Shown here one piece after another: positions 4,065 through 50,112 of a stretch of 64,000 bases of DNA (within the stretch, counting starts at the first letter, position 1; each line of letters begins with the position of its first letter). The translations under genes and the position numbers were made by a program. The stretch lies in assembly GCA_017893485.1 (NCBI GenBank), contig CM030366.1, positions 198,987,835 to 199,051,834 on the forward strand. The letters are read 5' to 3'. The stretch comes from Hemerocallis citrina (Eukaryota; Streptophyta; Magnoliopsida; Asparagales; Asphodelaceae). The notes beneath the pieces were generated by a model. It worked only from the letters and a program-made list of their open reading frames with translations, was not told the origin of the DNA and ran no database searches.

Positions 4065-7000
4065 CATCTTTTGGAACATCCGGGGTCTTAATTGCCCCGT
4101 TAAACAAAGGGCGATTTACCAGCTAATAGCTTCCTCTCACTGTGATCTTATTTCTATCCAAGAATCGAAGATTGATTCACCCTCCCCGACTATCTATCGC
4201 GCGATAGGTGGATCCATTATCTCTAAATGGATCTCCTTAGACGCGATAGGATCTAGGGGAGGTATCCTATTCGGCTTCAAAGAGTCGGTCTTTTCTCTTA
4301 TCGCGGTTCGACGTCTTAACTTTTTCCTTATCGTCCAACTGCATTGGACGGTTCTCAACTGCACTCTCTCGGTGATTTCAGTTTATGGACCTCCTCTTCA
4401 GATAGGCGCAGTTTACTTCGGAACGAATTTCTTTCGCTTCACAATTACACTGACGGCCTCTATTTTTTCTGTGGGGACTTTAATGTCACCAGGTTCTCCC
4501 ACGAAAGGTCATCCCCGTCTTCCTCCAATTATCCCTCCAACGTTTTTAACGATTGTATCCAAGCTTTGCAGTTGACCGATCTTCCACTTAACGGTAGATC
4601 TTTTACCTGGTTTAACCTTCGTCAATCCCCGACGATGGCCAAACTCGACCGTTTCCTTGTTTCCCAAAGCTGGATTAACCAGTTTCATAACACTTTCTCC
4701 AAAGCCTTACCCAATCACTCCTCTGACCACGTTCCCATTGCCCTTCACTCTAATTTCCGCTTCACTCATCATCATAAATTTCGTTTCGAAAAATTTTGGT
4801 TACAAGACCAACTGTTCGTCAATCTTATTGTGGAATGCCTTTCGTCAGTTACCTATTCTTCTGGTCTGGGTAGCATCCTCCTTAAACTTCACGCCATTAA
4901 ATTCGGTTGTAAGATTTGGCGTTACGAAAGACAGAATAACACCGTTTTCCTTAAAAACTTTCTCCTAGCTTCCATCGAGTCCTTCGATAAGCTGGAGGAG
5001 TTGGGCCCCCTTTCTGATTCCTTTCGTTCTAAACGACTCTCGTGCAAGCGAGATTACGCCGACATCCTTCATCAGGACCATATTAAATGGGCTCAAAGAG
5101 CCAGATTTAAATGGTTGAAGGAGGGTGACGACAATACTGCTTTCTTTCATAGTTATGCTTCGCACAGGCAACGTTGCAATCGGATTTCTTCGATCAGTGA
5201 CAACGGTGTCGATCTTAGCTCCGATCAGGAGATCCATCGTGCTTTCCTTTCTTTCTACAAAAACCTTATTGGCTCGTACAAACAGCGCTCTATTAGCCTT
5301 GATTGGAACCACCTTTATGGGGCTCAGTCTCAGGACCTCTCTGCTCTTGAGGCCCCTTTCTCTATGGAAAAGATTAAATCGGCTGTTTTCTCTTTAAAAA
5401 ACGAATCAGTGTCGGGACCGGATGGATTCCCCGCCTTCTTTTTCCAAAAATTCTGGCATTTGCTCCAAGACGATCTTTTCCGTATGTTTACGGAACTTCA
5501 TCAGGGTTCCTTTTCTTTCGACCGTATTAATTATGCGCACATTGTGCTCATTCCCAAAATGGTGGGAGCGCACTCTGTGGCGCACTTTAGGCCTATTAGC
5601 CTGATCAACACCTCCTTCAAAATCATTATGAAAGTTCTTTCCGCAAGGCTCAGCGCGGTCTTATCTCCCCTCATTGACCCCACCCAATCGGGCTTCATTA
5701 AAAACCGTTTTATCCTTGACAGTGTTGCCTCGGCTCAAGAGATCATCTCTCATTGTCACTACTCTAACGCCGAAGGTATCCTTCTCAAACTCGACTTCCA
5801 AAAAGCTTACGATAACGTTAGCTGGGATTTCCTGTTCGAAATTCTTATTAATAGGGGATTCGGTCCAAAATGGATTGCTTGGATTAAATCCAGTCTCTTC
5901 TCTGGTACTTCTTCCATCATTATCAATGGTTCTGAAGGTCACAAATTTAAAATTAAATGTGGACTCCGCCAAGGAGATCCACTTTCATCCCTTCTATTTT
6001 TCCTTGTTGCAGATGTTTTTAGTAAACTTCTTCGCAATGCATGGGAAGCCCAGGTCATTAAAGGCCTAGGTGACTCACGCCTTTTTCATGGTGTTCTTAA
6101 CCTGCAATATGCTGATGATACTATCATCTTCGCCAAACCGAATTCTCACTCTCCGTAACCTAAAATTTCTGCTATACTGTTTTGAATTAGCTTCAGGACT
6201 ATCGATCAATTTTCAAAAATCTTTTGTTCTCTAGCTTGAAGGATCACCTAATCGCCAGCATGAGATCTCTAACTTCTTAAACTGTCCTATTGCCTCTTTT
6301 CCCATTACGTATTTGGGTATTCCCCTACGATGGGGTAAACTGCATAAAGCTGACTGGTTGCCCATGGTGGATAAGGTAGAATCTAGGCTTAACGTTTGGG
6401 CAGGGAAACTCCTCTCCCGTGATGGTAGATTAATCCTTCTTAACTCGGTCCTCTCCTCCATCTCCCTTTATATGATGTCATTCTATTATGTCCCCTCTTG
6501 GGTCATCAAGCGGATAGACCAAATCAGAAGTAATTTTTTCTGGTCAGGTTCCTCCACTCTCAAGCCAGGCTCGCACCTTAGCAACTGGCAACTGGTCTGC
6601 TCTTCCAAAGCGGCTGGGGGTTTAGGGGTATTGAACCTCAGACACCAAAATATCGCGTTATTGGGTAAATGGCTTTGGAGATTTTTAAAATTTGATCTCT
6701 TACCTTGGATCCAAAGTATCAAGGTTAACTGCTTTTCCAATCGACATCTGTGGGAATTTCCTCCCAGTATTCATCGTAACGCTTCCCCGTTCTGAAAGGG
6801 GGTATGGAAAGCGGCCGCAGCATTCCAATGCGGCATCTTCCATGACTGTTTCGACAGATCCAAGACCAAGTTCTGGTCCGATCACTGGATTGGTAACACC
6901 AAACTCACCTCTTTCCCGGCACTCTTCCGCCTGGCCTCCAATCCCCTTTCCACGGTGGCAGATTCTTTCACCATTATTAATTCGCAAAGGCATTGGGTCA

Positions 7001-7695
7001 TCCCTTTCTCGACCGATCTTCCTTCACACCTTACTTCTGATCTTAACGACCTCCTTTTTTTCCTTAACCATTTCGTTTGGCGCCCAAAAGAAGATTTTAT
7101 TTGGCGTTGGAACTCGGCGGGGATCTTCACTGTTAAATCGTTCTATAACTTTCTTAACTTTCGAGGTATCCACTCCCCTTTTGCTGATTTCATTTGGAAT
7201 ACCTGTGCCCCTCTGAAGGTTAAAATCCTCACTTGGCTCGCCTTCAACAACACGCTGCTCACTGTCGAAATCCTCAACAAAAGGAATTTGGCATGGGGAC
7301 AATTGTGCCCCCTTTGCTCTAATAATTTTGAAGACGTGGATCACCAATTTGTTGGATGTGAATTCATTCGCCCCTTATGGAAAATTAGTTCTCTAGCCTG
7401 GGAATTCCCTTCTATCCCCTCCAAGTTATCCTCGTGCTGGTCTCTTCATCCCACGAATAAAAGATTCAGCAGATCGTGGAATCTATCAGTTCAAATTATT
7501 ATTTGGATCACATGGTCGGAAAGAAATAAGCGGTTATTCCAGCACTGCGCTTCCCCAATCTTTCTTATTATTGAAGATTTTTTATTTCTTTTTAATTTCT
7601 GGTATTCGAGTTTAAAAACCGAAGCTAGAGATTCTCTTTCCAGTCGTAGACTAGACGACTCTTTACTTTGCCTCCATAACCTTAATGCTTTATAA
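4057..7695 (+). pseudogene. LINE ORF2 (endonuclease, reverse transcriptase, zf-RVT), broken
   Basis: ORF2 nicks the target and copies the element RNA. The ATG at 4057 opens an APE-type endonuclease (FWNIRGLN, then SIQESK, GDFNVTR, LDRFL, SDHVPI). The frame shifts by one base near 4392-4400. The reverse transcriptase follows: SGPDGFPAFFFQKFW, then LKLDFQKAYD (first catalytic Asp), GLRQGDPLSS, and YADD at about 6108-6119. A second frameshift and a TAG lie between 6155 and 6235. The thumb region resumes as YLGIPLRWGK and runs to an in-frame TGA at 6793. The same frame reopens into a zf-RVT domain (FIWRWNSAGIFTVKSFY, later CPLCSNNFEDVDHQFVGC) ending with TAA at 7693. All core motifs survive, so it is recently dead rather than ancient. 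Confidence 0.9.
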
Positions 7696-24719: not shown

Positions 24720-26190
24720 AATATAGCTTGTGCCGGGAGCCAAGCTCGAATGGTCGGTGCTGAGCATCGAGCCTAGAGGGTCGGCGCCGAGCGCCTGGAG
24801 TGAGACATTTAATGAAAGAATCTGTATGGTGGCTCAAAGTCCATGCCAAGCTCTGAGCTAGGAGGGTCGGCGCCGAGGCATTTTGTGAGAAGCTGTGTGG
24901 AGGCTCGAAGTCCATGTCGAGCTCCGAGCTAGGAGGGTCGGTGCCGAGCACCTCGAGTGAGGCATTTTATGAAATAGGCAGTGTGGACGCTCGAAGACCA
25001 TGCCAAGCTCCGAGCTAGGAGGGTTGGCGCCGAGCACCTCGAGTGAGGCATTTAGTGAAATAAGCTGTGTGGATGCTCGAAGTCCATGCCGAGCTCTGAG
25101 CTAGGAGGGTCGGCACCGAGCACCTCGAGTGAGGCAGTTTGTGAAATAAGCTGTGTGGAGGCTCGAAGTCCATGCCGAGCTCTGATCTAGGAGGGTCGGC
25201 ACCGAGCGCCTCGAATTGAGGCATTTTGAGAAAGAAGCTGTGTGGAGGCTCGAAGTCCATGCCGAGCTTCGAGCTAGGAGGGTCAGCGCCGAGCACCTCA
25301 AGTGAGGCATTTAGTGAAATAAGCTGTGTGGAGGCTCGAAATCCATACCGAGCTCCGATCTAGGAGGGTCGGCGCCGAACGCCTATAATTAAGGCATTTT
25401 GTGGCATAAGTTGTGTGGAGGCTCCAAGTCCATGCTGAGCTCCGAGCTAGGAGGGTCGGCGCCGAGCACCTCGAGTGAGGCATTTTGTGAAATAGGCTAT
25501 GTGGATACTAGAAGTCCATGCCGAGCTCCGAGCTAGGAAGGTCGGCTCCGAGCGCCTCGAGTGAGGCATTTAGTGACATAGTGGTGTGGAGGCTCGAAGT
25601 CCATGCCAAGCTCTTAGCTAGGAGTGTCGGGGCTGAGTGCCTCAAGTGAGGCATTTTTTGAAACAGCCTGTGTGGAGACTAAAAGTCCATGTTGAGCTCC
25701 GAGATAGGAGGGTCAGCGTCGAGCACCTCAAGTGAGGCATTTAGTGAAAAAAGCTATGTGGAGGCTCGAAGTCCATGCCGAGCTCCGAGGCAGAAGGCCT
25801 TGAGCTGTGAGGCCATTTTCTACAAAAGCTAGGGTGATGCTCGAGATCCATGCCGAGCATCGAGCTAGAAGGCCTTAAGTTGTGAGGCCATTTTGTGGAA
25901 AAGCTAGGGTGAGGCTCGAGATCCATGCCGAGCGTCGAGCCTGAAGGCCTTGAGCTGTGAGGCCATTTTCTGCAAAAGCTAGGGTGATGCTCGAGATCCA
26001 TGTCGAGCATTGAGCCAGAAGGCCTGGAGCTGTGAGGCCATTTTATGGAAAAGCTAAGGTGAGGCTAAAGATCCATGCCGAGCGTCGAGCCAGAAGGCCT
26101 TGAGTTGTGAGGCCATTTTCTGCAAAAGCTAGGGTGATGCTCGAGATCCATGCCGAGCGTCGAGCCAGAAGGCCTTGAGCTGTAAGACCA
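24720..26190. repeat. two adjoining families of degenerate tandem repeats in the Tat element
   Basis: From about 24720 to 25780, roughly a dozen copies of an 85-94-bp unit contain gaggctcgaagtccatgccg and gagggtcggcgccgagc. From about 25790 to 26190, about five copies of a related ~86-bp unit contain ggccttgagctgtgaggcc and atgctcgagatccatgccg. They lie between the Tat 3' LTR and the antisense ORF. The minus-strand frames crossing them are by-products of the repeat and have no known domain. Confidence 0.85.
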
Positions 26191-26343
26191 CTTTTTGGCC
26201 AGAGCCTTGCTTTGGTGTTTGGCGTGTCTGAAGTGCACAGTGGACCCCGAGCATTTGGGACTTGAGAATTTGGGCCGTATGTGGGCCAACAAGGCAGTGA
26301 CATGTCATGTTTTTTGAGGGTTTCGAGGAGTCGCTGGTTTCAC

Positions 26344-30150: not shown

Positions 30151-30227
30151 TGAAAATTTTGAGTAAGTGATTAGCTGAAGTCCAAGCCGATGGTTTACGA
30201 CTTGATTGTTTGACGAAACCCTCATAG

Positions 30228-30850
30228 GTGTTCGAAGTCCAAGCCGAGCGGCGAGTTTGTTAGGGGTTGAAGAACCTCTCGTAGGTGAGTCTGAGCCGAG
30301 GGCTAGGAGTTTAGGGATTGAGAAATCCATCACAGGTGTTCGAAGTCCAAGCCGAGCGACGAGGATGTGAGGGGTTGAAGAACCCCTCGTAGGTGAGTTC
30401 GAGCCAAGGGCTAGGAGTTGAGGGATTGAGAAATCCCTCACAGGTGTTCGAAGTCCAAGTCGAGTGGCAAAGACGTGAGGGGATGAAGAACCTATCGTAG
30501 GTGAGTCCAAGCCGAGGGCTAGGAGTCGAGGGATTGAGAAATCCCTCATAAGTGTTCGAAGTCTAAGCTGAGTGGCGAGGACGTAAGGGTTCGAAGAACC
30601 CCTCGTAGGCGAGTCTGAGCCGAGGGCTAGGAGTTGAGGGATTGAGAAATCCCTCACAGGTGTTCGAAGTCCATGCCGAGCGGCAAGGACGTGAGGGGTT
30701 GAAGAACCCCTCGTAGGTGAGTCCAAGCCGAGGGCTAGGAGTTAAGGGATTGGGAAATCCCTCACAGGTGTTCGAAGTCCAAGCCTAGCGGCGAGGACTT
30801 GATGGGTTCAAGAACCCCTCGTTGGTGTTCGAAGTCCATGCCAGGCGGCG
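30228..30850. repeat. 108-bp tandem repeat array (about 6 units)
   Basis: gtgttcgaagtcc begins units at 30228, 30336, 30444, 30552, 30660 and 30768, exactly 108 bp apart; a shortened copy starts at 30825. Since 108 is 36 codons, a minus-strand frame of 221 residues (30726-30061) stays open and encodes a 36-residue repeat (for example DSPTRGSSTPHVLAARLGLR). There is no evidence that it is translated. Confidence 0.9.
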
Positions 30851-30919: not shown

Positions 30920-31496
30920 TCTGTTTGTTTACATGATGTAAAGCCTCTCAACTCGTTGCTGATATATGGGTCGTCGGATAGTGGATCTTTCCCGTACCTC
31001 ATCAATGAGGTCCAGGTTCGCCCTGATGTCGCTTGAGTTTGATTCCCTATCAAAGCCCATGTACCTCGGCAATGGGAGGCCGACTTCCAGAGGGATGATA
31101 GCCTCGGTCCCGTATGCCATATTGAACGGGGACTCGTCGGTCGGAATTCTCTTGGTAGTTCGGTGTGACCAAAGGACGCTTGATAACTCTTCGACCCATA
31201 AACCCTTGGGGGATTGGACTCGCCGATCGGAATTTGGCGGTTGGTGTTTTCTACTTGGCCATTCGATTGGGGTGAGAGATTGACGAGAAGCATTGCTGAA
31301 TGCCGAGGTCTTCACAAAACTTTAGAAAAATTTTGCCGACGAAAGTTCCGTTATCGGTGAGTAGCACGCGAGGGATCCTGAATCGACAGATGATGTGCTT
31401 CCAGAAGAATTGTTGGGCTTGATGCTCCGTGATCGCGGCCAAGGGTTTCACCTCGACCCACTTGTAAAGTAGTCGACGGCCACGATGAGGAATCCC
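30920..31496 (-). pseudogene. Tat integrase core and C-terminal half
   Basis: Integrase joins the element cDNA to the host chromosome. On the minus strand the core resumes at its first catalytic Asp (VAVDYFT), with a 1-base loss just after it, then WVEVKPLAAITEHQ, and the second Asp in TDNG; the residue normally following DNG is missing. A frameshift precedes NGQVENTNR, which holds the catalytic Glu. The tail reads LWSHRTTKRIPTDESPFNMAY and stops near 30920. The N-terminal half lies at 44854-45270, 13 kb away across the Mutator composite. Confidence 0.85.
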
Positions 31497-32430
31497 AAGT
31501 TGTAGAAGTGAGTTTCGATTCACGGTTCGAGAGATACGGCCGTGTATCGCTTTTGGTTGAAAAAACCAAGTAAAGCGGTACCCGGCCGTATCTCGCAAAC
31601 CGTGAGTCGAAACTCACTTCTACAAGTTCGGGTGGCTTGTGCTACGTGAATTCGACCAAGTTGGAAAGTTTTATAAATTTTGGATGCCGTTTGTGCAGTT
31701 TTCTCACGTTCCTTGCATTAGAAGTTAATGACTTAGAATATTTTTAGTGCGGTTAGAGTTGAAAACCTTGCAAACGGCCTCCAAAAAATACGAAACTTTG
31801 TGAGTAGGTTGATCTCACGCAGCACAAGCCACCCCAACTTGTAGAAGTGGGTTTCAATTCACGGTTCGAGATGTAAGGCCGTGTATCGCTTTCGGTTGAA
31901 AAAAAGCCAAATAAAGTGATACACGGCCGTATCTCGCAAACCGTAAGTCAAAACTCACTTCTACAAGTTTCGGTGGCTTTCGCTACGTGAATTCAGGCAA
32001 GGTGCAAAGTTTTATAAATTTTGGATACCGTTTGTACAGTTTTGTCACGTTCCTCGCATTAGAAGTTAGTGACTTAGAATTTTTTAAGTGCGGTTAGATT
32101 AGAAAACCCTTCAAATGACATCCAAAAAATACGAAATTTTGCGAGTAGGATGGTCGCATGTAGCACAAGCAACCCGGACTTATATAAGTCAATTTCGACT
32201 CACGGTTAGAGAGATACGGTCGTGTATCGCTTTCGATTGAAAAAAACACAAATAAAGTGATACACGGCTGTATGTCTCGAACCGTTAGTCGAAACTCACT
32301 TGTACAAGTTGTGATGGCTTGCGCTACGTGAATTAAATCTAGGTGCAACCTTTTATAAATTGTGGTTGCCGTTTTGTGGGGTTTTGTGATGTTTCTCTAA
32401 TAATATGTAAATAAAGTTAGAAAGTTATCA
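31497..32430 (+). repeat. left terminal array of the 340-bp palindromic unit
   Basis: Units start with aa(c/g)ttgtagaagtgrgttt at 31497, about 31836 and about 32177 (periods 339 and 341). Each unit contains its own inverse: acttgtagaagtgagttt...aaactcacttctacaagt over about 135 bp, then ggtggcttgtgctrcgtga...tcacgcagcacaagccacc over about 200 bp. The array is therefore alternating inverted copies of a ~170-bp monomer. The third unit is more diverged. Confidence 0.85.
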
Positions 32431-32487
32431 TCACATTCCGTAACGGATTTAGTAGCCCTAATTGTTATCCTTTTCACGCTTTCTTAG

Positions 32488-34812
32488 GTATAGAAAGTTT
32501 TGAAGGAAGTTCTGTTGCCGGAGAGAAATTTGTTCGAGCACAACAAATTGGCAAGTTTCTTCCTCATGTTGACGAGCACCTAAAACCAAATATTGGTATG
32601 ACATTTCCACTCTAGAGGAAGCAGAAAAATTTTATTCATCGTACTACAAATGTACGGGATTCTCTATGAGTAAAGGTGGAAATAAATACATGGAAAACGA
32701 TGTAGTGGATAAATCATATATTTGTAATAAAGCCGGGGAGTCACCGAATAATCAGAATGAAGCTAGACGAGGAACAACTTCTAGAATGGGTTGCAAAGCT
32801 TTCGTTCGTGTCAAACTAAACCCACAAAGTAATTCGTGGACTCTTTATTCATTTAATGAACCATACAATCACGAATTTACTTCACCCGGTAGACGTCACT
32901 TGCTACCTCGAAACCGTGAATTGACAAATACAGAGAAAAAAGTAATTGGTCAACTTACCGAAACTAATGTCCCTGTATGCAAACAAATACTATTCTTTGA
33001 AGGTGCAAGTGGAGGTAATGAAAAAATTGGTTTCACTGAAATCGATGTCAGATATCTCAGGAGAGATGAGATGGAAGGTTTAAAAGGACATGACGGGCAA
33101 ATGCTACTTGAGTTCTTTGAATCCAAAAAGGAGATCGATCCTTTATTCTATTATGATTACCAATGAGATCCCGAAGGGCGATTGTCCCATTGTGTCTGGA
33201 TAGATGGTATTGCTAGAAAGAATTATGAAGTGTTTGGGGATGTTCTTTGGTTTGATGCTACCTACAACACAAACCAATACGGAATGTGGTTTGTACCATT
33301 TGTTAGAATCAATCATCATTGGCAATCAATATTCTTAAGTTGTGGGTTCATCCAAAATGAGAAGGCATCCTCATTTGAGTGGTTCTTTGAAAAGTGGCAA
33401 GGAGCAATGACTCACGATCCGATGAACATCGTGACAGATGAGGATCGTGGAATAACTTCTGCATTTTCTAAAGTTTTCTCAACCACGTCACATAGATATT
33501 GCATTTGGCATATTTTGGATAAGTTACCGCATGAAGTGTGTATGCCGAATAACATTGACGGGTTTAGGGATGCTTTGAAGACTATCATTTATATGGTGGA
33601 ATATAAAACTGAATTTGAACAGAAGTGAAAATTTTTGATTTCCCAATACAAACTTGAGAATAACAAATGGTTGAAGGAAATATTTGAGATTCACGAGAAA
33701 TGGGCTTCCGTGTACGCAAGAGACTCATTTTGGGGCGGCATGTTGAGTACCCAACGTAGCGAATCACTACATTCATCCTTGAAGCACCATACTCATAAGA
33801 AGTACTCATTATATGAATTTGCCGTCATCTCTGACCGAGTCTTAGTAAAACAAAGACACGATGAACTTAAAGAAACACATAGTAATCGCGAGGTGAGGCC
33901 AAAATTGAAGACCGAATGGGCGTTGGAGTCACAAATGGCGGGAACATACACACTGAAGATTTTCTACAAATTCCAACAAGAAGTCGTAAAAAGCTTATTA
34001 CTTAATGTGAGTTTAATTGCGAGTATGGATACACCGGATAGTGCAGCTTATTCTGTAACCATTTGTGGAAATTCAAAACCGGGGAGGGTGATTTCTTATT
34101 GTAAAATTAGTCAAATTGCTAAATGCCCTTGTGCCATGTATGACTTCGTAGGCATTCCCTGCAAACATCTATTGGCAGTTATTCGGTTCACAGATCACAC
34201 CGCACTATCCGAGCAATATATTTGTAGGCGATGGACCAGGGATCAACTGACAATAAGCAGTACACCGGTTCCCAGTAGTATGGGCGACAATTTTATCTCT
34301 CGTTATTGTGAACTGACTATGCACTCAAGATATTTGGTCGATCTTGGTTATTCTTCAGAGCGAGGGTACAAGTACATGCTCGACCACATGCTCAAGGGAA
34401 TCGAAGGCTTTGCTCGCATTGAATCCGAGAATAGCAGACCACACGAAGGTAGAGCACAATCGGAGAGTGGTGGACATGCACATGCACAAGTAGGGGACCC
34501 CGTGTAGTGCACCACAAAAGGGAGGCCTAAAGGGAAAAGGTTGAAGTCTATCAGAGAATTCCAAAAAACGAAGAGGCCAAGACTTTGCAGGACATGCCTT
34601 CGTGTCGTATGTCACGATTCACGAAATTGCCCAAAAAATATGGCAAGGTAATATATCAGAGACTAATTATTTGTTAATTGGACTCAATGAATCTAAACTT
34701 ATTGTAGTCGATACTAACCCTTTGTTCTCCCTTATTTAGTGGATCGGTAGGGTATGAAGAAGCTCCAAATACTGGGGAGAGTGAGGATGATGAAGGTGAA
34801 GGTTCGTGCTAA
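32488..34812 (+). pseudogene. FAR1-type MULE transposase (MURA-like), broken
   Basis: MULE transposases cut and join Mutator-like DNA; FAR1/FHY3 regulators descend from them. The N-terminal FAR1 DNA-binding region reads KPNIGMTFP, then after a 1-base loss LEEAEKFYSSYYKCTGFSMS, with a CKAF...HEF zinc-ligand pattern. In-frame TGA codons at 33164 and 33626 interrupt the MULE catalytic domain (LWFDATYNTNQYGM with its Asp, TDEDRG, HRYCIWHIL). The SWIM finger follows (CPCAMYDFVGIPCKHLL). A TAG at 34505 precedes an AT-hook-like GRPKGKR and a zinc knuckle. A GT...AG intron at 34648-34739 leads to a last acidic exon ending TAA at 34810. An acceptor-like ag at 32486-32487 suggests a lost upstream exon. 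Confidence 0.88.
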
Positions 34813-35285
34813 GGGGTTTTTCGTGTTATGTATATCATATTTTATGATAAACACCGAATAATTGCCTACATTTGTCTTTCGATGTGAATAGAATTATTAA
34901 TTTCAACTTGATTATTAACCTTTTTTTTTTTGGGTGCATGACCGGAATGAAACAAAATCATGCCCATGGAAAGAATCAATGCATTGAAAACTTCCATACT
35001 TTTGATTGTATATATGTGGTTAATTGAACGTTTCTTTGTAATTGAGTTTTTGTAATTGATACTTCCATACTTCCAAATTTTTGTTGTAATTGATTTTTTT
35101 TGGATGCCGATGTGTACAAAATTATTATTTGTGTTGACGGTTGTGAGTGAATTTTATGTATTTGTGCAGACTGTGTTTTTCTGCAATATATCTATGCTAT
35201 TGGATTTTTTTAAAATTTGTGGAAAATTGTGAAAATTTATGGAAACTTACATTTTGAAGATAAAATACTGCAAAATCGGATAAAC
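34813..35285. other. AT-rich spacer after the transposase gene
   Basis: Presumed 3' UTR and spacer, with a T run at 34920-34931. No gene is seen before the first hairpin array. Confidence 0.5.
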
Positions 35286-35628
35286 CTAGCCCGTTATTGG
35301 AGATAACAGGTTAAAATAACTTAACCCGTTATTGAGGAGAATAGGTTAAGTAGATTGATATTGGCAGGACCTCATACCATACAGACCAAGTATTGATAAA
35401 ATACTGCCAATTTCTCTCTGCTTAACCCGTTATCGGGGATAACGGGTTAAGATCACTTAACCCGTTATCTTAAATAACGTGTTAAGTAGATAGATATTGG
35501 TAGTAGTTTATCAATACTTGGTCTGTAGGAGATGAAGTCCTGCCAATATCTCTTTACTTAACCCGTTATTGGTGATGACGGGTTAAGATCACCTAACCCG
35601 TCATCGTCAATAACGGGTTAAGTAGAGA
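35286..35628. repeat. hairpin array A (AACCCGTTAT palindromes)
   Basis: Pairs of short palindromes, ttaacccgttatngnngataacgggttaa, are separated by atca or similar. The pairs are joined by a longer inverted sequence, gatattggcagtact...agtcctgccaatatc. Three pairs are visible. The downstream flank (35640-35720, containing cttttgttgatacacataca) is repeated after array C (39680-39740). Confidence 0.88.
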
Positions 35629-36014
35629 CTTTTTTACAGAACTTTCGTCTGTGTAGGCTCTATGTGCTTTTGTTGATACACATACAACTTCACAAAATTT
35701 GTTCATTCACAACAACTTCTACAGATGATAATTTGTTCATTCAGCAATTCACATCAATCTTGGGATACTTAACCCGTTAAGTTGATTGATATTTGCAGTG
35801 TCTTCGCCTTTGTGGTACAACTCTTTAAATTTCCAAAATAAAGTTCGGAGAATATAGGGATACAGACTATATCTTATAACAGCTTTGTACATCAAACATT
35901 ACAAACTGGGAAATACATGTAAATTGAACATACATAGAATGCATACATAACTCAAGCGAATTGATATTACAAAGTCATTCTTTGACACTTTTACCAAAAT
36001 TTGCAATTAATTTA

Positions 36015-36512
36015 GTGTACAAGTACATGCTGGATTTCTTCTCAAAGAGGTAGGAAGAACTGCTGAACTGCCTTTTTTTGAATGCATAAGTAGCAGTTAT
36101 CCCTCCTGCATACAATTTAGTTCACTACTATTACACAGAGGCAGCAATTCTCTGGTTTGTGGGATATAGTAGTAGTGGGTGTAACCGTATATTCAAAGTA
36201 CTTGACAACTTCTTAACACGTACTCCTCATATTCGTACTATTTGTTGTATGATTGTGAGGTGTGCATGCCAAGAAGTTGAAAAGTACCATGAATACATTG
36301 TGACACCCACCACTACTCCGTCCTACGAAACCAGAGAATTTTTGCACGCTGTGTAACAATAGGGAACGAATGTGTATGAAGGGAGGAGAATTTCTACTTA
36401 AGCATTCATTCAAAAATCCCCAAAAAGAAGAGTAAGGGGAATGAAGAAAAAAAAAGGCAGAGTCAGGAGTCCTTCCTACCCCTTGAGAGAAACCCAGCAT
36501 GCACTTTGTACG
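36015..36512. repeat. ~0.5-kb imperfect foldback (long hairpin)
   Basis: The left arm, from about 36024 to 36240, is the imperfect inverse of the right arm from about 36245 to 36505. Landmarks are acatgctggatttc with gaaacccagcatgc, tttttgaatgcataagtag with cttaagcattcattcaaaaa, ttacacag with ctgtgtaa, and ttctctggttt with aaaccagagaa. RNA from it would form a hairpin with mismatched arms of about 230 nt, the shape of a young plant MIRNA or hairpin-siRNA locus. It could also simply be an inverted duplication within the transposon. Confidence 0.75.
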
Positions 36513-36689
36513 CTAAAGTAGACATGCATCTGTCACTCTACTTCTGCATCTTCAGCTTCTTTCTGAAACAATGTTATGAAGAACTCAGTTGAAGGAGACT
36601 CTATTTGAACTCAGGTTTTTTTTGAACTCAAACTTCTTCCCCTTTCAGCATCTGTCTCCTCCCTTTTTTTTTCTTTCTTTTCTTCATCT

Positions 36690-37185
36690 TATGTATTTTC
36701 TTTATTGAACTCAAGAGGCATATTTATAGGGAAATGAAGAAGAAAGAATTGAAGTGCAAGAAAATAAGAAGGAAATAATGAAGACAAGAAGAAAAGATTG
36801 GCAAGAAAACAATAAGGAATTGAGTGTGATTTGGAATGTTGAATGAAGAACACAAGAAAACAAGAAGGAAATGAAGAAGGCAATAAAAGATTGGGAAGAA
36901 AACAAGAAGGCAATGAGTGTGATCCTGAAATGTTGAATGAAGATTGGCAAGAAAACAAGAAGGAAATGAAGAAGGCAAGAAAAGATTGGCAAGAAAATAA
37001 GAAGGCATTCATGATGATTCTGAAATGTTGATACACTTCTCAATACATTGATACACTTCTCAATACTTTGTTGAATGAAGAAGGCATGAAAACAAGAAGG
37101 AAATGATAAAGGCAAGAAAAGATTGGCAAGAAAACAAGCATGAACATCAATATGATACACTTCTCAAAATGCAGCAACAACGACA
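36690..37185. repeat. purine-rich degenerate repeat
   Basis: The plus strand is A/G-rich with repeated aagaaaagattggcaagaaaa, aaacaagaaggaaatgaa and gtgtgatcctgaaatgttgaatgaa blocks. Frames on both strands (for example Phe/Leu-rich frames on the minus strand) are low-complexity consequences of this composition and are not called as genes. Confidence 0.75.
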
Positions 37186-37199
37186 GTAATATACCGACC

Positions 37200-37585
37200 A
37201 AGTATTCATAAACTTCTGCTAATATATCTCTACTTAACCCATTATTACCCGTCATCACCAACAACGGGTTAAGTAGACAAATATATGCAGTACTTCATGC
37301 ATACTTGGTCTGTAGATGATGAAGCACTGCCAATATATTATCTACTTAACCCGTTATTAAGGATGACGGGTTAAGTGCACTTAACCCGTTATCACCAACA
37401 ACGGGTTAAGTAGACATATATTGGCAGTACTTTTTGCAAACTTGGTCTGTAGATGATGAAGCACTGTCAATATATGTCTACTTAACCCGTTATTGGCGGT
37501 GACGGGTTAAGTGCACTTAACCCGTTATCCTTAATAACGGGTTAAGTATAGTTATATTGACAGTACTTGACATATATTGGCAGTA
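37200..37585. repeat. hairpin array B (AACCCGTTAT palindromes)
   Basis: Same design as array A: cttaacccgttat(c/t)...ataacgggttaag pairs separated by tgca, alternating with tatattggcagtact...agcactgccaatata. The spacer cttggtctgtagatgatgaa is also shared with array A. Confidence 0.88.
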
Positions 37586-38149
37586 CTAATAATTTTAACA
37601 TTGTTTGAAAAAAAAAATATCAAAATGTTTGTGAATACAATAAATAATGTAGTTCAATAAATGAAAACAATTTATTATAAATTATTCAAACACTACTGTA
37701 ACCCTACTAAAACTCTCTAACCCTAGTACGTTACAAAAAAACTCTTCATAAAAAATTATATAATCACCTATCCACAGAAGTTCGTTACACAATTTGAACT
37801 TTTAAAGTAAACAAATAAATTTTTATAACAATTACATACATTCAACGAATTCGGTTTAAAACATACAGTGTCAACGGGTTACGGCTAGGGTTACAGCGTT
37901 ATTGTAGGGTTATTGTAGGGTTAGAGTAGTTCTTAGGGTAAAAATAGGGTTACGGGTTATGTAAAATCAAGCTTCTTAAAACTTTGAGTGTTGAAAATGA
38001 TGAAATATAAAAAAAAAAAACTCAAATTAGAGGAACTTGGTTCACAACAAATAAATATAGGGTTAGAGTAATTTTAAACATTATGAAAATTTGATAATAT
38101 AGTTGAAAATTTGAAAAAAGTTTATTAAAAATGAATCTAACCCTACGAA

Positions 38150-38880
38150 CTACTCAAACCCTAATGTAACCCAACTATTCTAACCCTAGCCGTAACCATA
38201 CTGTAACCCTACTCTCACCCAAGCTGTAACCCTTCCCTAAGGTTAGAGTAAGTTTTAGAGTAGGGTTAGGACACGTTTGTTGATATTAGAAAGGGTTAGA
38301 GATAAGGTTAGAGGAGGGTAGAGTAGGTTAGAGATAAGGTTAGAGTAGGTTAGAGTAGTTCGTAGGGTTAGAGTAGGGTTGGATAGTTAAAGTAGGGTTA
38401 TAGTAGGGTTAGAGTAATTTTAAACATTCTGAAATTAAATAATATAGTTGAAAATATAAATTTTTTTTTATTAAAAATGAAAATTATTAAAAAATATATT
38501 AAAAAATACATGTTTATGAATGTCACTAAATGGAAATTATTAAAAAATAAATGGAAATTATTACGTGGCAATAAATGGAAATTAATAAAAAGCATAAAAT
38601 TGCATAAGTAAAACTCCACATGTAGAACCCATGTAGAACCACATGTAGAACCACATCAGATTATACTCCCCACATGTGGATGATCACATGTAGAACCCAA
38701 TAATGCAAAAATTTCAGTGCGTTTTAGACCGGAGAGCTACAAATATTAACCTAATTAATCAAAACAAAAAACAACCACTTACTACTAACCCTTAACCCTA
38801 GCTTACCCTAACCCTAGCTTACCCTAACCCTAACCCTACACTAACCCCTAACCCTAACCCTACGCTAGTTATCAAATTTT
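38150..38880. repeat. telomere-like degenerate repeats
   Basis: Blocks of taaccctaacccta (minus G-strand ggttagggtt) occur at 38150-38250 and 38780-38870, and ggttagagtagggttaga-type variants occur at 38240-38420 (also about 37860-37960). The repeat is closest to CCCTAA rather than the common plant CCCTAAA. It is internal to the Mutator composite, so it is not a chromosome end. Confidence 0.7.
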
Positions 38881-39059
38881 ATTTTTTAAACTTTTACACC
38901 ACCTTTAATGTTAACGATTTTATATTGGTTAGTTACGTGGCAATAAATGGAAATTAATAAAAAACATAAACAATTATTGGCATATGAATGTCACTTTGCA
39001 GAGTTCAGGAGACAATATTCGCAAAGGATGTAGAGAAAGTTGTAGAAAGCATAAAAATA

Positions 39060-39665
39060 TCTTTCTACTTAACCCGTTATTGTGAATAACGGGTTAAATG
39101 ATCTTAACCCGTTATTCACAAGAACGGATTAAGTAGATAGATATTGGCAGTATATTATGAAATTTAACCTGGAGAAGTCCTGCTAATATCTATCTACTTA
39201 ACTCGTTGTTGTGGATAACGGGTTAAGCAAACTTAACCCGTTAACCCCAATAACGGATTAAGTGGAGAGATATTGGCAGTCCATTATGATGACTTTATAT
39301 GTAGAAGGATAAAGTACTACCAATATCGCTCTACTTAACCCATTATTGTGAACAACGGGTTAAGATCACTTAACCCGTTATTCACAATAACAGGTTAAGT
39401 AGAGCAATATTGGCAGTACTTTGGTCTGTAGGGGATAAAGGACTGCTAATATCGCTCTTCTTAACCCGTTGTTGTGAATAACGGGTTAAGTGATCTTAAC
39501 CTGTTGTTCACAATAACGGGTTAAGAAGAGCGATATTGGTAGTACTTTATTAAGACTTGGTCTGTAGGCTTCTAAAGGACTGCCAATATCTCTCTATTTA
39601 ACCCATCATCATGAATGACGGGCTAAACTCAATTAACCCATTATTGTCAATAACGGGTTAAGTAT
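39060..39665. repeat. hairpin array C (AACCCGTTAT palindromes)
   Basis: The longest array, with five paired-palindrome blocks. Typical is cttaacccgttattgtgaataacgggttaa: 13-base arms around a short loop. The blocks alternate with gagcgatattggcagtact...agtactrccaatatcgctc. Base changes often occur in both arms, for example gttattgtgaataac and gttgttgtgaataac, though not always compensating. Confidence 0.88.
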
Positions 39666-40068
39666 AAAGATTTGTGCAGCACTTTTGTCTCTATTTGGCT
39701 GTATACATTTTTGTTGATACAAATACAACTTCACCAAATTTTGTTCACAAATTCACATCACATCAATGTATATAATACAACAGATAACTTCACAAGAATT
39801 TTAAAGCATACAAATGTACAATGTCAACCAAATCACATAATTAATTCAAATCAATACAATTATCCAAAATTTACATAAAAATTATACATATAAAGTTACA
39901 CATGTTCAAAATAAAAAAAATATTGATAAAGGCGTTCTTCACGTTGGCTTGCACAGCATGCCCGGTATTTACCTACAACAATTTATCAACATAGAAACAA
40001 ACTATTCATTAGTTATTGGAATAACAAAATCAACAACCAAATGCTAAACTACTAAAGAGTATTAGATA

Positions 40069-42321
40069 CTACTGTTTATGGCCACGCGGCTTGCGACCGC
40101 TTGGTGTGAATTGATCGGGCGGGTTCCGCTTCCTTTGAGAATTTCGCCATCTGCCTTGTGTCCTGGGGGATTCAGGGTCATCCGACCACTGCTCCATTTC
40201 AACTTCTTCGGAATTTTGCTGTTGTTGCAGTTGTTGTGGCTCGGCAATGTGAATTCCCTGCCTTGTCACGCTCTTTCGCCTAGAACCCGTTGCTGGCACG
40301 TTGGCTTTCAAATACGCCTTAAGTTGCGGACCTTCACCCGTGTCCTCAAGAGTACGACGGCACGGCATTAGCATCTCCCGCCTTATCTCCTTAAAGCTCT
40401 CGGGTACCTTACTCTTCAAGACGCGAGCAGCTGTTCGAACGTTCTCCCATGTGTTTTCAATCTACATTTGGTTGAAATTTTCAATTTAAACAACATGCAT
40501 ACTTAACACATCACCTACCTCAAATTACGGTACATGCATACTAACTATATGAAATTTGACTAATAATTTTTCGATATGTCTCAGCCTTTGGTTGGTACAT
40601 CGGCTGGGAGGAGGAATATGTCTGAGCTGGTTCTGCATGGGTTGGGGGAATCGAAATCTGTACATCGGCTGGTACAGCAGCCTTTGGGGAAACATACAAC
40701 CGTGTTATCCGCTTGTACCACATCATGTATGCCTATTGGAGGGAGCCATCATACGGTATCGTGACGAACATCATATTCGGTGTCATTTGACGCCACATGG
40801 TGTTCCAGTTGGCTACATGGTAACGATGGTAATCAGCCCAATCGAAATTGGGCACTCATCCCGTTTCCCTCACCTCGTGCAACTTTTTATCATAACACCT
40901 GACATCGAGAATCTTTTGTTGATATTCAAATTGCCGAATCACTCTATCAGGATACTGGAACTGACAACTCCAAAATTCACAAGTGGTACAACCGTCAATC
41001 AAAGGGCACTGTCTAAAAGGACCGGTGGAACCCTTTGCAACCTGGCGGTCGAGTACGGTTCCCAATTGATGAACTCGTCCCGCAGGTTATCTAACTCATC
41101 TCTATAGTAGGTTAAAGATTGGTGTGGGTTATCGACCCACGTGTGCCACCCCGCCCAATATGCTCCTAGAGGAGGTAACAACTCCGGCATCCCCGGATCG
41201 ACCAACCAATCCGGTGTAACCTCAATAATACGGGGACGTCCGATGTGGATGCGTTCCCAACTCCAGATCTGCAGTAGCACCATTGGGCCACCCATTTGTA
41301 TGGCACCTAAAGAACATGTGCACAAATTCCTATATAGTAGCGCTAGTGCCGCACTCCCCCAACTGAAACGGCCCGCATAACGAAAATCTTCCAACAACCG
41401 TAGGTACATTAGGGGTATGGTTGATCCGGATGAGTTCGGGAAGATCACTCCCCCTATCATACTAAAAATGTATGCACGTGCATAGTAGGTTAGGGTTTGC
41501 TCGTCCGAATCGGGGGCCAAATAATCCACCTCGAACTGAAATTTCAACCAACTGATGTACAGTGATTTACCATCGAAAGTTTCATCCATAACTTCAGCTT
41601 TCGCTTTATCTTTCGCAGCTTCTATTTGTTCATACAATGAATCTTCATCAATATCTGCAGGAACATTATCGAGGATTTCTTTTTCAACGGCCTCTCTTCT
41701 TTATAGAACTATCAACTGGAGATCGATACCATGCAAATCACGAACAACTTCAACTCGATCGAAGTCCATATTCTCCGTCACGGCGACCCCATCTATTAGT
41801 AACCCAGTTATCATTGCCACATCTTGGAGGATCACAGTCATCTTACCCACTGGTAGGTGGAATGTGTGGGTCTTCGGCCTCCATCGCTCGACAAGAGCTG
41901 TAAGTAGCGGCCGATCTAGCTTCACTGAACCCATGAATTTTGCTCTGTAGAAACTGGCCTCCACTAAGTACAGCGTGATACGGGGGTCAAAAGGAAGAAC
42001 TATGTGGTTCCGGAAGTTACATTTCTTATCGGACCCATTCCACACGGCTTCGGATCAGTATTTGGGTTGCAAGGTGAGTAAGTTTGTGTCCACGGGTCCA
42101 GATGATGTAATGGGAATCGAGGATGATGGACCTGCCTCAGCAAATGTAGATTGACGGCCACCAACCTACACGAATGAAGATAATAAATGTTATTACTGAG
42201 ATAATATTACATATTCGTATTTAAAACCAATAATAATAATCAATCTTACCTCAGTAGTTGGTGCGCGGCGTGCGCCACTAGTGGTATCGGACGGGCTTCT
42301 CAGTTGCCTTGTTCTAGCCAT
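40069..42321 (-). pseudogene. plant mobile domain (PMD, MAIN-like) gene, broken
   Basis: PMD proteins (MAIN/MAIL1 family) are plant nuclear proteins linked to silencing, and related genes sit on transposons. Exon 1 (42321-42250) reads MARTRQLRSPSDTTSG and ends in GAG|GTAAG. Exon 2 starts after tgtag at 42166. A TGA near 42046 precedes SEAVWNGSDK. The PMD core follows (LLTALVERWRPKTHTFHLPV, then LQDVAMITGLLIDG). A TAA at 41701 and a frameshift near 41010 interrupt it; matching parts continue as GSAALALLYRNLC, WSWERIHIGRP, QFQYPDRVIRQFEYQ and MMWYKRITRLY. The last exon (40461-40069) is Arg/Gln-rich and ends in SGRKPRGHKQ and TAG. It is convergent with the transposase gene. Confidence 0.85.
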
Positions 42322-42394
42322 TTATCTATGTACCAAAAAATTTAAATATGGTTGGTACGCGTTACATCCAGTTATTTATCATCAATGAACATAC

Positions 42395-44085
42395 CGAGAT
42401 TGTGGGAAAAAACGCACAAATGACAACAAAAAAAAGCAGTAAAAGTCAACTTGGTCGGATTCACGTAGCACAAGTCACCCCAACTTGTGGAAGTGAGTTT
42501 CAACTCTCGGTTGGAGAGATACGGGCGTGTACCGCTTTTGGTTGTAAAAAAACCCAAATAAACGATACACGGTCGTATATTTTGAACCGTGAATCGAAAC
42601 CCACTTCTACATATTGGGGTGGGTTGTGTTGCGTGAGATAAGTTTACTCACAAAGTTTCGTATTTTTTGAAGGCCGTTTGTAAGGTTTTCAACTCTAACC
42701 GCACTAAAAATATTCTAAGTCATTAACTTCTAATGCGAGGAACGTGAGAAAACCACACAAACGACATCCAAAATTTATAAAACTTTCCAACTTGGTCGAA
42801 TTCACGTAGCGCAAGCCACCCGAACTTGTAGAAGTGAGTTTCGACTCACGGTTTGCGAGATACGTCCGTATACTGCTTTATTAGGTTTTTTTAACCAAAA
42901 GTGATACACGGCCTTATATCTCGAAACGTGAATCAAAACCCACTTCTACAAGTTGGGGTGGCTTGTGCTGTGTGAGATCAACCTACTCGCAAAGTTTCAT
43001 ATTTTTTGGAGGCCGTTCGCAAGGTTTTCAACTCTAACCGCACTAAAAATATTCTAAATCATTAACTTCTAATGCGAGGAACGTGAGAAAACTGTACAAA
43101 CGACATCCAAAATTTATAAAACATTTCAACTTGATCGAATTCACGTAGCGCAAGCCACCCGAACTTGTACAAGTGAGTTTCGACTCACGGTTTGCGAGAT
43201 ACGTCCGCATACCACTTTATTAGGTTTTTTTTAAACCAAAAGCGATACACGACCTTATATCTCGAACCGTGAATCAAAACCCACTTCTACAAGTTGGGGT
43301 GGCTTGTGCTGCGTGAGATCAACCTACTCGCAAAATTTCCTATTTTTTGGAGGCCGTTTGCAAGGTTTTCGACTCTAACCGCACTAAAAATATTCTAAGT
43401 CAGTAACTTCTAATGCGAGGAACGTGAGAAAACCGCACAAATGGCATTCAAAATTTATAAAACTTTTCAACTTGGTCGAATTCACGTAGCGCAAGCCACC
43501 CAAACTTGTAGAAGTGAGTTTCGACTCACGGTTTGCGAGATACGGCCGTATACCGCTTTATTAGCTTTTTTCAACCGAAAGCGATACACGGCCTTATATC
43601 TCGAACCGTGAATCGAAACCCACTTCTACAAGTTGGGGTGGCTTGTACTGCGTGAGATCAACCTACTCGCAATATTTCGTATTTTTTGGAGGCCGTTTGC
43701 AAGGTTTTCAACTCTAACCGTACTAAAAATATTCTAAGTCATTAACTTCTAATGCGAGGAACGTGAGAAAACCGCACAAACGGCATCCAAAATTTATAAA
43801 ACTTTTCAACTTGGTCGAATTCACGTAGCGCAAGCCACCCGAACTTGTAGAAGTGAGTTTCGATTCACGGTTTGCGAGATACGGCCGGGTACCGCTTTAC
43901 TTGGTTTTTTTCAACCAAATGCGATACGCGGCCGTATCTCTCGAACCGTGAGTCAAAACTCACTTCTACAACTTGGGGTGGCTTGTACTACGTGAGACCA
44001 ACCTACTAGCAAAGTTTCGTATTTTTTTACGGTCGTTTGCAGGGTTTTCAACCATAACTGCACTGAAAAGTTTCTAAATAATTTC
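42395..44085 (-). repeat. right terminal array of the 340-bp palindromic unit
   Basis: Units start at 42482, 42823, 43162, 43503 and 43842, 339 or 341 bp apart, with the same two nested palindromes as the left array. Copies 2-5 are more alike than the left units. The array would form the right terminal inverted repeat of the Mutator element; because each unit is itself palindromic, direct and inverted repeat orientation cannot be told apart. Confidence 0.85.
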
Positions 44086-44299
44086 GTATATACAATTCTA
44101 GTTCTACAAATTACTAAGGCAAAAAAAAAGTTTGGCAATTGAATATATTAAAAGTCTTCCCAATTCTACATCTACAAATTACTAAGGCAAATAATTTTTT
44201 GCTCACTTTCTAAATAATTTAGAATACACAAATTGAAAAATAAACACAAATATATCTACTGAGGTAAAGAAATAGTCAATACCTTACAAAATAAGTCCA

Positions 44300-44562
44300 A
44301 ATTTAGCCAATGGTTCAATTTGGGGCCGAACTAGGGTTTCGATTTGCTTTCGAAGAGGGGATGAGAGAGTTGGATTTCAATGTTTGGAGTAGATATTGGG
44401 AGAGAGGAGGGGGAGCGGACGGAGGGGGACAAGTTTGTGTTTAGATCAAGAATTAAGGTTTTCGTCACTTTGGGTTCGGTGAAGAAACGAGAGAGAGAGT
44501 GGGAGAGAGTCGTTGAAGAAGATGATCTGTATGCAGATCTAAATGAATTTAGAGTGCCTTAA
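44300..44562 (+). other. purine-rich segment beside the right array
   Basis: A 60-residue frame (44380-44562) rich in Glu and Arg reads through it, but the composition is low-complexity and no domain is visible. It may be the leader of a transposon gene. It ends directly at hairpin unit D. Confidence 0.35.
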
Positions 44563-44658
44563 CCAGTTCTTGGGAATGACGGGTTAAGGCTAAATTTTTT
44601 TATAATATTTTGCCTTAACCCGTCGTTCCCAACGACGGGTTAAGGCAAAATATTATAA
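44563..44658. repeat. hairpin unit D with a perfect 28-bp-arm palindrome
   Basis: 44600-44627 and 44631-44658 are perfect inverse copies around the loop ccc, centred on gccttaacccgtcgtt. A second ccagttcttgggaatgacggg copy precedes it. The motif is that of arrays A-C with GTCGTT in place of GTTATT. This places the hairpin family outside the right 340-bp array. Confidence 0.9.
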
Positions 44659-44751
44659 GAAAATATATGGGCCGTCGGATCAAAGATCCAACGGCCCAGA
44701 TTAAAGTTCGCACGGGTCTGTGCACACAGACCCGTTTGCAACGAAAGGAGG

Positions 44752-44754
<3 letters not shown>

Positions 44755-44822
<68 letters not shown>
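44755..44822. repeat. (TA)n microsatellite
   Basis: A run of about 33 TA dinucleotides. Flanked on the left by an 11-bp-arm palindrome (acgggtctgtg/cacagacccgt, 44712-44735) and on the right by an LTR-like terminus. Confidence 0.95.
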
Positions 44823-44826
<4 letters not shown>

Positions 44827-44853
44827 CTCCTTCGAAATTTACGGGGTGTTACA

Positions 44854-45270
44854 AAAAGGACCGGCAAGGTCCATCTCTCACATGGCAAATAGGGTAGGGC
44901 TGGCAAGCAACTACAGCTCGGCTTGGGGGAGCATCTAATGGGAGAAAACCGTTGGCAGGGGCCGCACCATCTTACGAGGTCCTTAGCATCTTGTAGCATA
45001 GTAGGCCAGTAGTAGCCGTGGTTGAGTACTTTTCGGGCCAGCGACCTGCTGCCCATGTGGCATCCCTCAATCCCTTCGTGTAGCTCTTCTAAGGCGTACT
45101 TAGCCTCGTCTGGTGTCAGACAGCGGAGATAGGGTCTCGCGTCTGACTTGGTGTAGGAGCGCTTGAAGAGTACGTCCCCAATTAAGGCAAACCTTTCTTA
45201 CCGGATCCTTGTAGTTCGTGCCGCGGCATGGTCCTATGGTAGCTCTCTGTTGGTCAGGAATTTTTGTACG
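44854..45270 (-). pseudogene. Tat integrase N-terminal zinc-binding domain
   Basis: On the minus strand the linker (FLTNRELP, then a TAG) leads to DVLFKRSYTKS, YLRCLTPDEAKYALEELHEG, and the HHCC zinc domain, H...H ... CGPCQRF (residues of MGSRSLARKVLNHGYYWPTM). It continues to CEMDLAGPF and ends abruptly at 44854, where the Mutator composite begins. The catalytic core continues at 31496. The other side is cut at 45270 by LTR-like DNA. Confidence 0.87.
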
Positions 45271-48963: not shown

Positions 48964-50112
48964 TCAGGGAGGAAGGCGGACGATGCCCTTGTCCTCGATT
49001 TCCAAGAGGATGGCCAACACGTTTTGTGTCAGCGGAGTGTACCTCTCAAAATGGGGGACCGACAGGGAGCGCTTCTGGGCGGATAGATCCTTGTGGGCCT
49101 TCTTCAGACGTTCTGGTTCTTCGGCCTTCTTCTTCCCCTTTCCTAGGGTTTCTTTCAGGCCTTTGGGATGCAGGGCCTCCTCGGTCCGGATGTACTTCTC
49201 GACCCTGTTGAGGAGGTCGGGAAAGTCTAGGGGCGGTTTCTTAGCCATGGAGGCCTTCAGCTGGCCGTGGTGAACATTATACCGATAGGACGCCGAGGCG
49301 ACGCTGGCATCGAAGAACGCGACCGCCCTTGCTTCCGTTTTGAATCTCCTCACAAATTTGCGGAGGGTCTCTCCTTCCTTCTGTTTGAGGTCCAAGAGGG
49401 ATGCGCTCGTCTTCTCTACCTTCCGACTGGTGACGAAGTGGGCGAGAATGTTTGCTTCGAATTGGTCGACCGAGAAAACCGACCCAGGGAGGAGCTTCGA
49501 GAACCATTCTCGAGCCGGCCCGCGCAGGGTGGCAGGAAAGGCGCGTCATAGGAGAGGATCTGATGCGTTGAGCATCCTTATGAGGGTTTTGAATCCTTCC
49601 ATGTGATCAGCTGGATCACTCTCGCCATTGTAGGTCTCGAACTGAGGCGGCCTGAAATTCCTGGGAATCTCGGCATCAAGAATTTGGGGGGAGAACGGAG
49701 GTCGGCTCAGCTGATGAGCCTGGCCTGTTTGTGGCCCTCCTTTATTGATGCAGGCGAGGCGATTCTCCATCTCCTGGAGGTGGTGGAGGACGGCTTCGTT
49801 TGGCTGGGACGACCCGTGAGACACGGGACCCTGGCTCTCTTTGCGCCTTGGGTCGGCGATTTGTTATTCGAACTCGGGACCGCCCCCAAGGCCCCGGAGG
49901 ATCTCGTTCCCGAACTCTCGGAACTCGGCTCTCGTGACTGGAGCTTGTTCGTCCGGACGGGGCAGAGGTGAACCTCCCCTGGGGGAGCGGCTACGGTTGT
50001 TTCGGGATGGAGGGGTCGGAGCTGGGTCAGAAGGGACTGCCTTCCTCCGTGAGCGGCTGAGCTGGAGCAAAAGATCAATTAGGGGCTGCCGATTGCTGAT
50101 GACATGTCGTAA
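48964..50112 (-). pseudogene. Tat gag, broken
   Basis: Gag forms the particle that carries element RNA. The minus-strand frames from about 50112 contain VISNRQPLIDLLLQLSRSRR and an Arg/Pro-rich head. 49824-49546 reads IPRNFRPPQFETYNGESDP, the start of the retrotransposon gag domain. 49395-48964 reads DLKQKEGETLRKFVRRFKTE and DFPDLLNRVEKYI, its end. At least three frame changes are needed to connect them. A C-terminal zinc knuckle was not found. Similarity to the family stops near 50112, where AT-rich unrelated DNA starts. Confidence 0.85.

Follow-up and report, generated by a model that had tools for sequence, protein, structure and literature searches.

A two-gene Mutator-like family in Hemerocallis citrina pairs a FAR1-type transposase with a convergent plant mobile domain gene, a candidate VANC-like anti-silencing factor

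The window analyzed here is a 64,000-nucleotide stretch of the Hemerocallis citrina genome (contig CM030366.1), and one block of it is a degenerate copy from a large two-gene family of Mutator-like elements (MULEs) that has been active recently. The element carries a FAR1-type transposase gene on the plus strand and a gene with a plant mobile domain (PMD) on the minus strand, and the recurrence of this transposase-PMD pair in other copies is close to certain. Based on structural models, we favored, by a modest balance, the reading that this TA-targeting family uses its PMD protein as an anti-silencing factor resembling VANC. The parts of the element in the window are as follows.

31494 to 32374, plus strand: left terminal inverted repeat, truncated, with 2.6 copies of a 341-bp unit (Tandem Repeats Finder [TRF]; inverted match to the right array)
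32573 to 34507, plus strand: transposase gene (FAR1, MULE, and SWIM), broken by in-frame stops (Pfam; stop count)
34508 to 40068: non-coding spacer, containing 35-, 126-, and 137-bp tandem repeats as well as imperfect palindromes around TTAACCCGTTATT
40072 to 40461, minus strand: putative exon 3 of the PMD gene, with a basic C-terminal tail and inferred splice sites (matching open frames in the related elements el1 and el2)
40568 to 42165, minus strand: exon 2 of the PMD gene (PF10536), with stops, a frameshift, and inferred ends (Pfam; stop count; comparison with el1 and el2)
42250 to 42321, minus strand: putative exon 1 of the PMD gene, starting with ATG (MARTRQ...), with a putative GT-AG intron to exon 2
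42446 to 44077, minus strand: right terminal inverted repeat array, with 4.8 copies of the 341-bp unit (TRF)
44078 to 44754, minus strand: outer part of the right terminal inverted repeat, with the terminus core TTGCAAACGGG (alignment with el2)
44755 to 44826: TA microsatellite adjoining the right end, the probable insertion target (TRF; comparison of ends)

A first-pass annotation of this DNA had described a plus-strand FAR1/MULE/SWIM transposase and a minus-strand PMD gene in one block, and Pfam matches bore out both. FAR1 (E value of 8.3e-16), MULE (2.2e-25), and SWIM (1.4e-5) were found in three successive open stretches of the transposase gene, and PMD (7.1e-35 and 8.6e-21) was found in two stretches within 40999 to 42054; the FAR1, SWIM, and both PMD matches scored above the cut-off. 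The same annotation considered both genes dead here and supposed that intact relatives might exist. The window copy has 5 in-frame stops in 702 aligned transposase codons and 3 in 422 aligned PMD codons, and many of the copies listed below lack stops. In el1 (C1:422.05-422.07 Mb), for example, both frames are open, spanning 803 codons for the transposase and 547 for the PMD; they are convergent and have inverted arrays on both sides. In the el1 transposase, MULE (1.1e-27) and FAR1 scored above the cut-off and SWIM scored below it (16.7 versus 19.6 bits), and the el1 PMD scored 263.6 bits against a gathering score of 34.9 for PF10536. The best transposase homologue found was an Asparagus FAR1-RELATED SEQUENCE 5-like protein (50% identity over 72%). 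The FAR1 domain, the SWIM finger, and the nearest homologue found are those of a FAR1/Jittery-type MULE.

The 3.78-Gb source genome was searched for further copies. When the window and el2 proteins were used as queries, 159 transposase and 202 PMD places formed 24 pairs no more than 25 kb apart (counting the one in the window), compared to 0.43 expected by chance, and 21 of the 24 were convergent with the PMD gene downstream. The 341-bp unit was present no more than 1.5 kb upstream of the PMD gene in all 30 loci fetched, the window among them. Searches with the el1 proteins gave 56 transposase and 79 PMD places; these were the best matches only, and the counts that follow apply to the matches listed. 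A convergent PMD was located within 30 kb of 46 of the 56 transposases. Of the 10 transposases left over, two had a contig start 11 to 13 kb away in the direction of the expected PMD. At the other eight, reading 3.5 kb at the expected PMD position gave a PMD in four cases (divided over different frames in three), the element's right end in one, and nothing of the element in three. The four PMD-holding stretches showed 99.2 to 99.6% DNA identity to el1, and the reading brought convergent pairing to 50 of the 56 young copies. From the PMD side, 46 of the 79 paired with el1-query transposases and 4 more paired with transposases in the other lists. Pairing was kept from the older lineage of the window through to the young subfamily.

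These counts also decided whether the pairing might be accidental, with the PMD gene in a separate nested element that has its own ends. That idea, which the first-pass annotation had named as its own refutation, draws on a long, repeat-rich spacer and on search lists that contain best matches only. It is refuted by the 341-bp unit directly upstream of PMD in every locus fetched and by the 50 convergently paired young copies, and we gave it practically no credence. The recurrence that the annotation had proposed to look for was found in tens of other copies, and what it had called a composite is instead one two-gene element whose pair recurs convergently.

Frames without a stop were found at 50 of the 56 transposase places and 73 of the 79 PMD places. 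In addition, the protein was 100% identical to that of el1 (rounded) at 38 transposase and 27 PMD places, which were spread over many contigs. The many near-identical, stop-free copies indicated that the family moved recently.

To judge selection, ratios of nonsynonymous to synonymous divergence (dN/dS) were calculated for both genes. The median pairwise dN/dS in 12 paired elements (66 pairs for each gene) was 0.50 for the transposase (0.25 to 1.09) and 0.42 for the PMD (0.27 to 0.71). A codon model of 13 paired copies, with kappa chosen from a grid, gave omega values of 0.54 and 0.62, respectively, and fixing omega at 1 worsened twice the log-likelihood by about 50 for the transposase and about 25 for the PMD. 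When el1 was compared to 12 others, the medians were 0.30 and 0.39. Most change is expected after insertion and pushes omega up. Values below 1 therefore indicated that both genes were kept functional, and the check on PMD dN/dS that had been suggested earlier returned purifying selection.

MULEs are known to capture host genes, and the PMD gene could be such a capture that travels as a useless passenger. Ikeda et al. infer two captures of PMD-C by MULEs (PMC5418596; here and below, statements on the literature refer to the accessible parts of each source). We considered this explanation very improbable, and it was already disfavored by a PMD dN/dS below 1, by the predominance of stop-free PMD frames among the matches listed, and by the pairing retained from the older lineage to the young subfamily.

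The PMD gene has the same plan in the window, el1, and el2: a short first exon (protein start, MARTRQ...) is separated by a putative GT-AG intron from a long exon with the PMD, and a putative third exon encodes a basic tail. The splice sites are putative, and the el2 gene has a frameshift close to the end of exon 2. The element PMD was 27 to 44% identical to 62 aligned PMD proteins and at least 32% identical to 57 of them. In a tree without labelled PMD-A or PMD-B proteins, el1 joined a group in which the named members are eudicot proteins (support, 0.47). Two Actinidia database proteins (P0054 and P0095) combine MULE/SWIM or SWIM with PMD in one chain, which is either a fusion or a gene-model artefact.

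As noted in the feature list, the window copy carries two arrays of a tandem unit of about 341 bp. The two arrays are mutually inverted, with 85 to 89% identity across about 850 to 900 bp in the three best alignments. The first-pass annotation took these arrays as the bounds of the block. They are real and matching, but comparison with better-preserved copies such as el2, which have long terminal inverted repeats, identifies them as the inner part of such repeats and not as the element boundaries. In el2 (C5:72.72-72.74 Mb), the terminal inverted repeats are 2.35 kb and 89.8% identical; in el1, identity is 84.6% over 2.1 kb, the outermost left end lying outside the sequence taken. The right end of the window copy is at 44754, and the TA microsatellite starts directly after it. 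The left repeat stops at 31494 and lacks about 0.8 kb of its outer part relative to el2; a search of the left side of the window with the outer el2 repeat did not find it. The core TTGCAAACGGG is common to the ends, with one base changed in L002.

Of the 9 distinct ends read, 8 adjoin TA tracts of some 5 to 33 units (right ends of the window copy and el1, both ends of el2, L002, L005, L008, and L067; the duplicate L003 was excluded), the exception being L007. The family inserts mostly at TA microsatellites, and because the ends mostly abut such tracts, a target-site duplication of 8 to 11 bp is indistinguishable. The one 341-bp unit tested folds as DNA into a long hairpin that is far more stable than its shuffles (z of -8.7). 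The el1 spacer (about 15.55 to 17.78 kb; L040:8552-10000 and L063:1-782) contains a 558-bp unit repeated four times with 99% matches, a recent tandem expansion within that element.

The proposed function of the PMD protein starts from its predicted structure, which matched the VANC fold (VANC21, PDB 9lnj) in a structure comparison of models. VANC21 was also the single PDB fold match of a MAIN-LIKE-2-like plant protein (model mc76b4e673b1d/P0033). In the window spacer, AACCCGTT occurs 26 times between 34801 and 40060 on both strands, and the densest short motif occurs in the spacer and also near the element ends. The predicted VANC21-like fold and the purifying selection on PMD strengthened the anti-silencing idea. 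Each of the two genes starts just inward of a long terminal inverted repeat of 341-bp units, and the predicted fold of the PMD protein is that of a sequence-specific DNA-binding protein. The PMD protein may bind short motifs repeated in the non-coding DNA of the element; the best candidate is TTAACCCGTTATT, or alternatively a site in the 341-bp units. Bound PMD would remove or block silencing there, the transposase would then be made, and new copies would remain active.

MuDR has the same layout, with two convergent genes that both start within long terminal inverted repeats. The PMD protein might be a transposition co-factor like mudrB, acting in end binding or integration without an effect on silencing. 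MudrB is apparently needed for integration (PMC6446971), and a predicted DNA-binding fold together with repeats at the element ends would suit such a role. We judged this unlikely, since the structural match of the PMD is an anti-silencing protein and the densest short motif is found in the spacer too, not just near the ends. Slightly less likely still, in our view, is that the PMD acts on the host as a mimic of MAIN/MAIL proteins that competes in, and poisons, the MAIN-MAIL1-PP7L silencing complex. MAIN and MAIL1 silence transposons together with PP7L (PMC7156037 and PMC9899485), the element PMD resembles many PMD proteins at the identities given above, and the MAIN-LIKE-2-like protein has the identical single fold match. 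A mimic would, though, release silencing everywhere and presumably harm the host, and it gives no account of a DNA-binding VANC fold or of element-specific motif arrays.

Several points weighed against the VANC-like reading. The PMD was less constrained than the transposase by the codon model and by the el1 comparison, and its synonymous divergence was about twice that of the transposase in the same elements (0.119 versus 0.054). This could reflect exchange between elements or selection bias in the lists, and the two genes may sometimes move separately. Among the matches listed, 29 of the 79 PMD places had no transposase partner, which we tentatively read as a consequence of best-match-only lists and not as PMD without transposase. 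The superposition of PMD on VANC21 was loose (root mean square deviation [rmsd] of 4.2 and 12% identity with VIA-align), and Foldseek gave TM-scores of 0.30/0.42 with an rmsd of 14.1 for el1 and 0.36/0.58 with an rmsd of 9.3 for olive. A PMD profile search of the PDB up to an E value of 10 produced no match to VANC21 (9lnj). A common fold does not establish a common function, and the spacer motif could serve the transposase or a structural role. Finally, MAIN and MAIL1, which are host PMD proteins, have the opposite effect and promote silencing (PMC5418596).

The PMD has been called a domain of unknown function (PMC8616336), and it poses a puzzle: host PMDs silence transposons, yet transposons carry PMDs. 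A predicted structural relationship to VANC21, whose role is proven, leads to the concrete prediction that the PMD binds sequence-specifically to the element's own motif arrays. The shared VANC21 match in the models also raises the possibility that host silencing factors such as MAIN/MAIL and transposon anti-silencing factors such as VANC may have a common origin. More tentatively, and short of what we would favor, PMD and VANC might form one superfamily of sequence-specific DNA-binding proteins for escape from silencing, in which the PMD of this FAR1-type MULE family opens its own repeat-marked copies and host MAIN/MAIL are domesticated or counter-deployed members with the same fold. If so, the element would be a live, high-copy system for PMD function. 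The many near-identical copies with open genes make PMD function testable in this family.

The element sits inside a Ty3/Gypsy integrase, as indicated by two flanking features.

30929 to 31493, minus strand: downstream part of the Ty3/Gypsy integrase, interrupted by the element (Pfam rve in an open frame at 31251 to 31613)
44640 to 45197, minus strand: open frame that spans the element's right end and the adjoining part of the Ty3/Gypsy integrase, with integrase sequence from about 44855 (Pfam Integrase_H2C2, a zinc-binding domain)

Minus-strand Ty3/Gypsy pieces (gag and integrase) around the MULE cover 48967 to 49545, 44640 to 45197, and 30929 to 31613. Just beyond the TA tract, at about 44842 to 44853 on the minus strand, is a TGTAACACCCCG stretch, a common start of long terminal repeats; its position suggests a further nested insertion plus a deletion. 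A second copy of the element, located 240 kb away, has common flanks and the identical left truncation (L001/L006, 93.6%; L004/L003, 96.2%). The second copy is therefore a segmental duplication, and an independent insertion was ruled out. Elsewhere in the window, there is a plus-strand element resembling a long interspersed nuclear element at 1723 to 7692 (RVT_1 in 4320 to 6155, zf-RVT in 6796 to 7692, and DUF4283, below the cut-off, in 1723 to 3099), and arrays of 86-, 75-, and 108-bp tandem repeats lie at 25000 to 26195 and 30210 to 30827.

Both the occurrence of PMD in MULEs and the proposal that it counters silencing have already been published (PMC5418596, PMC6446971, and PMC8616336). Dupeyron et al. 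catalogued MULE transposases with a neighboring, often antisense, PMD gene in 2019 (PMC6446971, Table 1). In 2017, Ikeda et al. described fusions of PMD-C with MULE transposases from grasses and Amborella and proposed an anti-silencing use (PMC5418596), an idea that was taken up again in 2021 (PMC8616336). MAIN and MAIL1 with PP7L act both in silencing and in the expression of promoter-motif genes (PMC7156037 and PMC9899485). In the literature searched, as far as the texts were accessible, we found no report of a FAR1-type MULE that carries a PMD gene, of terminal repeats of such size and build accompanying PMD, or of a structural link between PMD and VANC, which the publication behind 9lnj may discuss; a 2021 meeting report mentions the VANC21 structure as unpublished (PMC8756742).

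MUDR, MUDRAVI2, MDR, MULE-Monocots, and MULE-Solanaceae_1 (PMC6446971) likewise carry a PMD on the strand opposite a MULE transposase with a SWIM zinc finger, but the Hemerocallis transposase differs from these PMD-bearing groups in being FAR1-type. In the accessible part of the same source, the plant FAR1 groups (group 36, Jittery, in dicots and monocots, and group 35 in half of its members) have one open reading frame (ORF) and no PMD entry. The el2 inverted repeats are about 2.3 kb and consist mostly of tandem units, whereas that source gives 14 to 500 bp in the text and up to 640 bp in the table. The PMD-C fusions (PMC5418596) are also MULE-borne, but here the PMD gene is separate from the transposase gene, converges on it, and has putative exons of its own. 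Long, modular foldback ends and insertion at TA microsatellites are also features of MuTAnT and of foldback MULEs such as FARE1 (PMC4486113); MuTAnTs differ in being short, and AutoMuTAnT has a single Jittery-like ORF, with no PMD mentioned in the text available. MuDR of maize likewise has two genes, and the function of its second gene is undefined. VANDAL21 (Hiun) with VANC21 (PMC5735166; PDB 9lnj) is also a MULE with an accessory protein of the same predicted fold, and a short motif recurs in its non-coding DNA, in part as tandem arrays. Its motif is different, VANC21 is missed by the PMD sequence profile, and the long inverted repeats set the Hemerocallis element apart from it.
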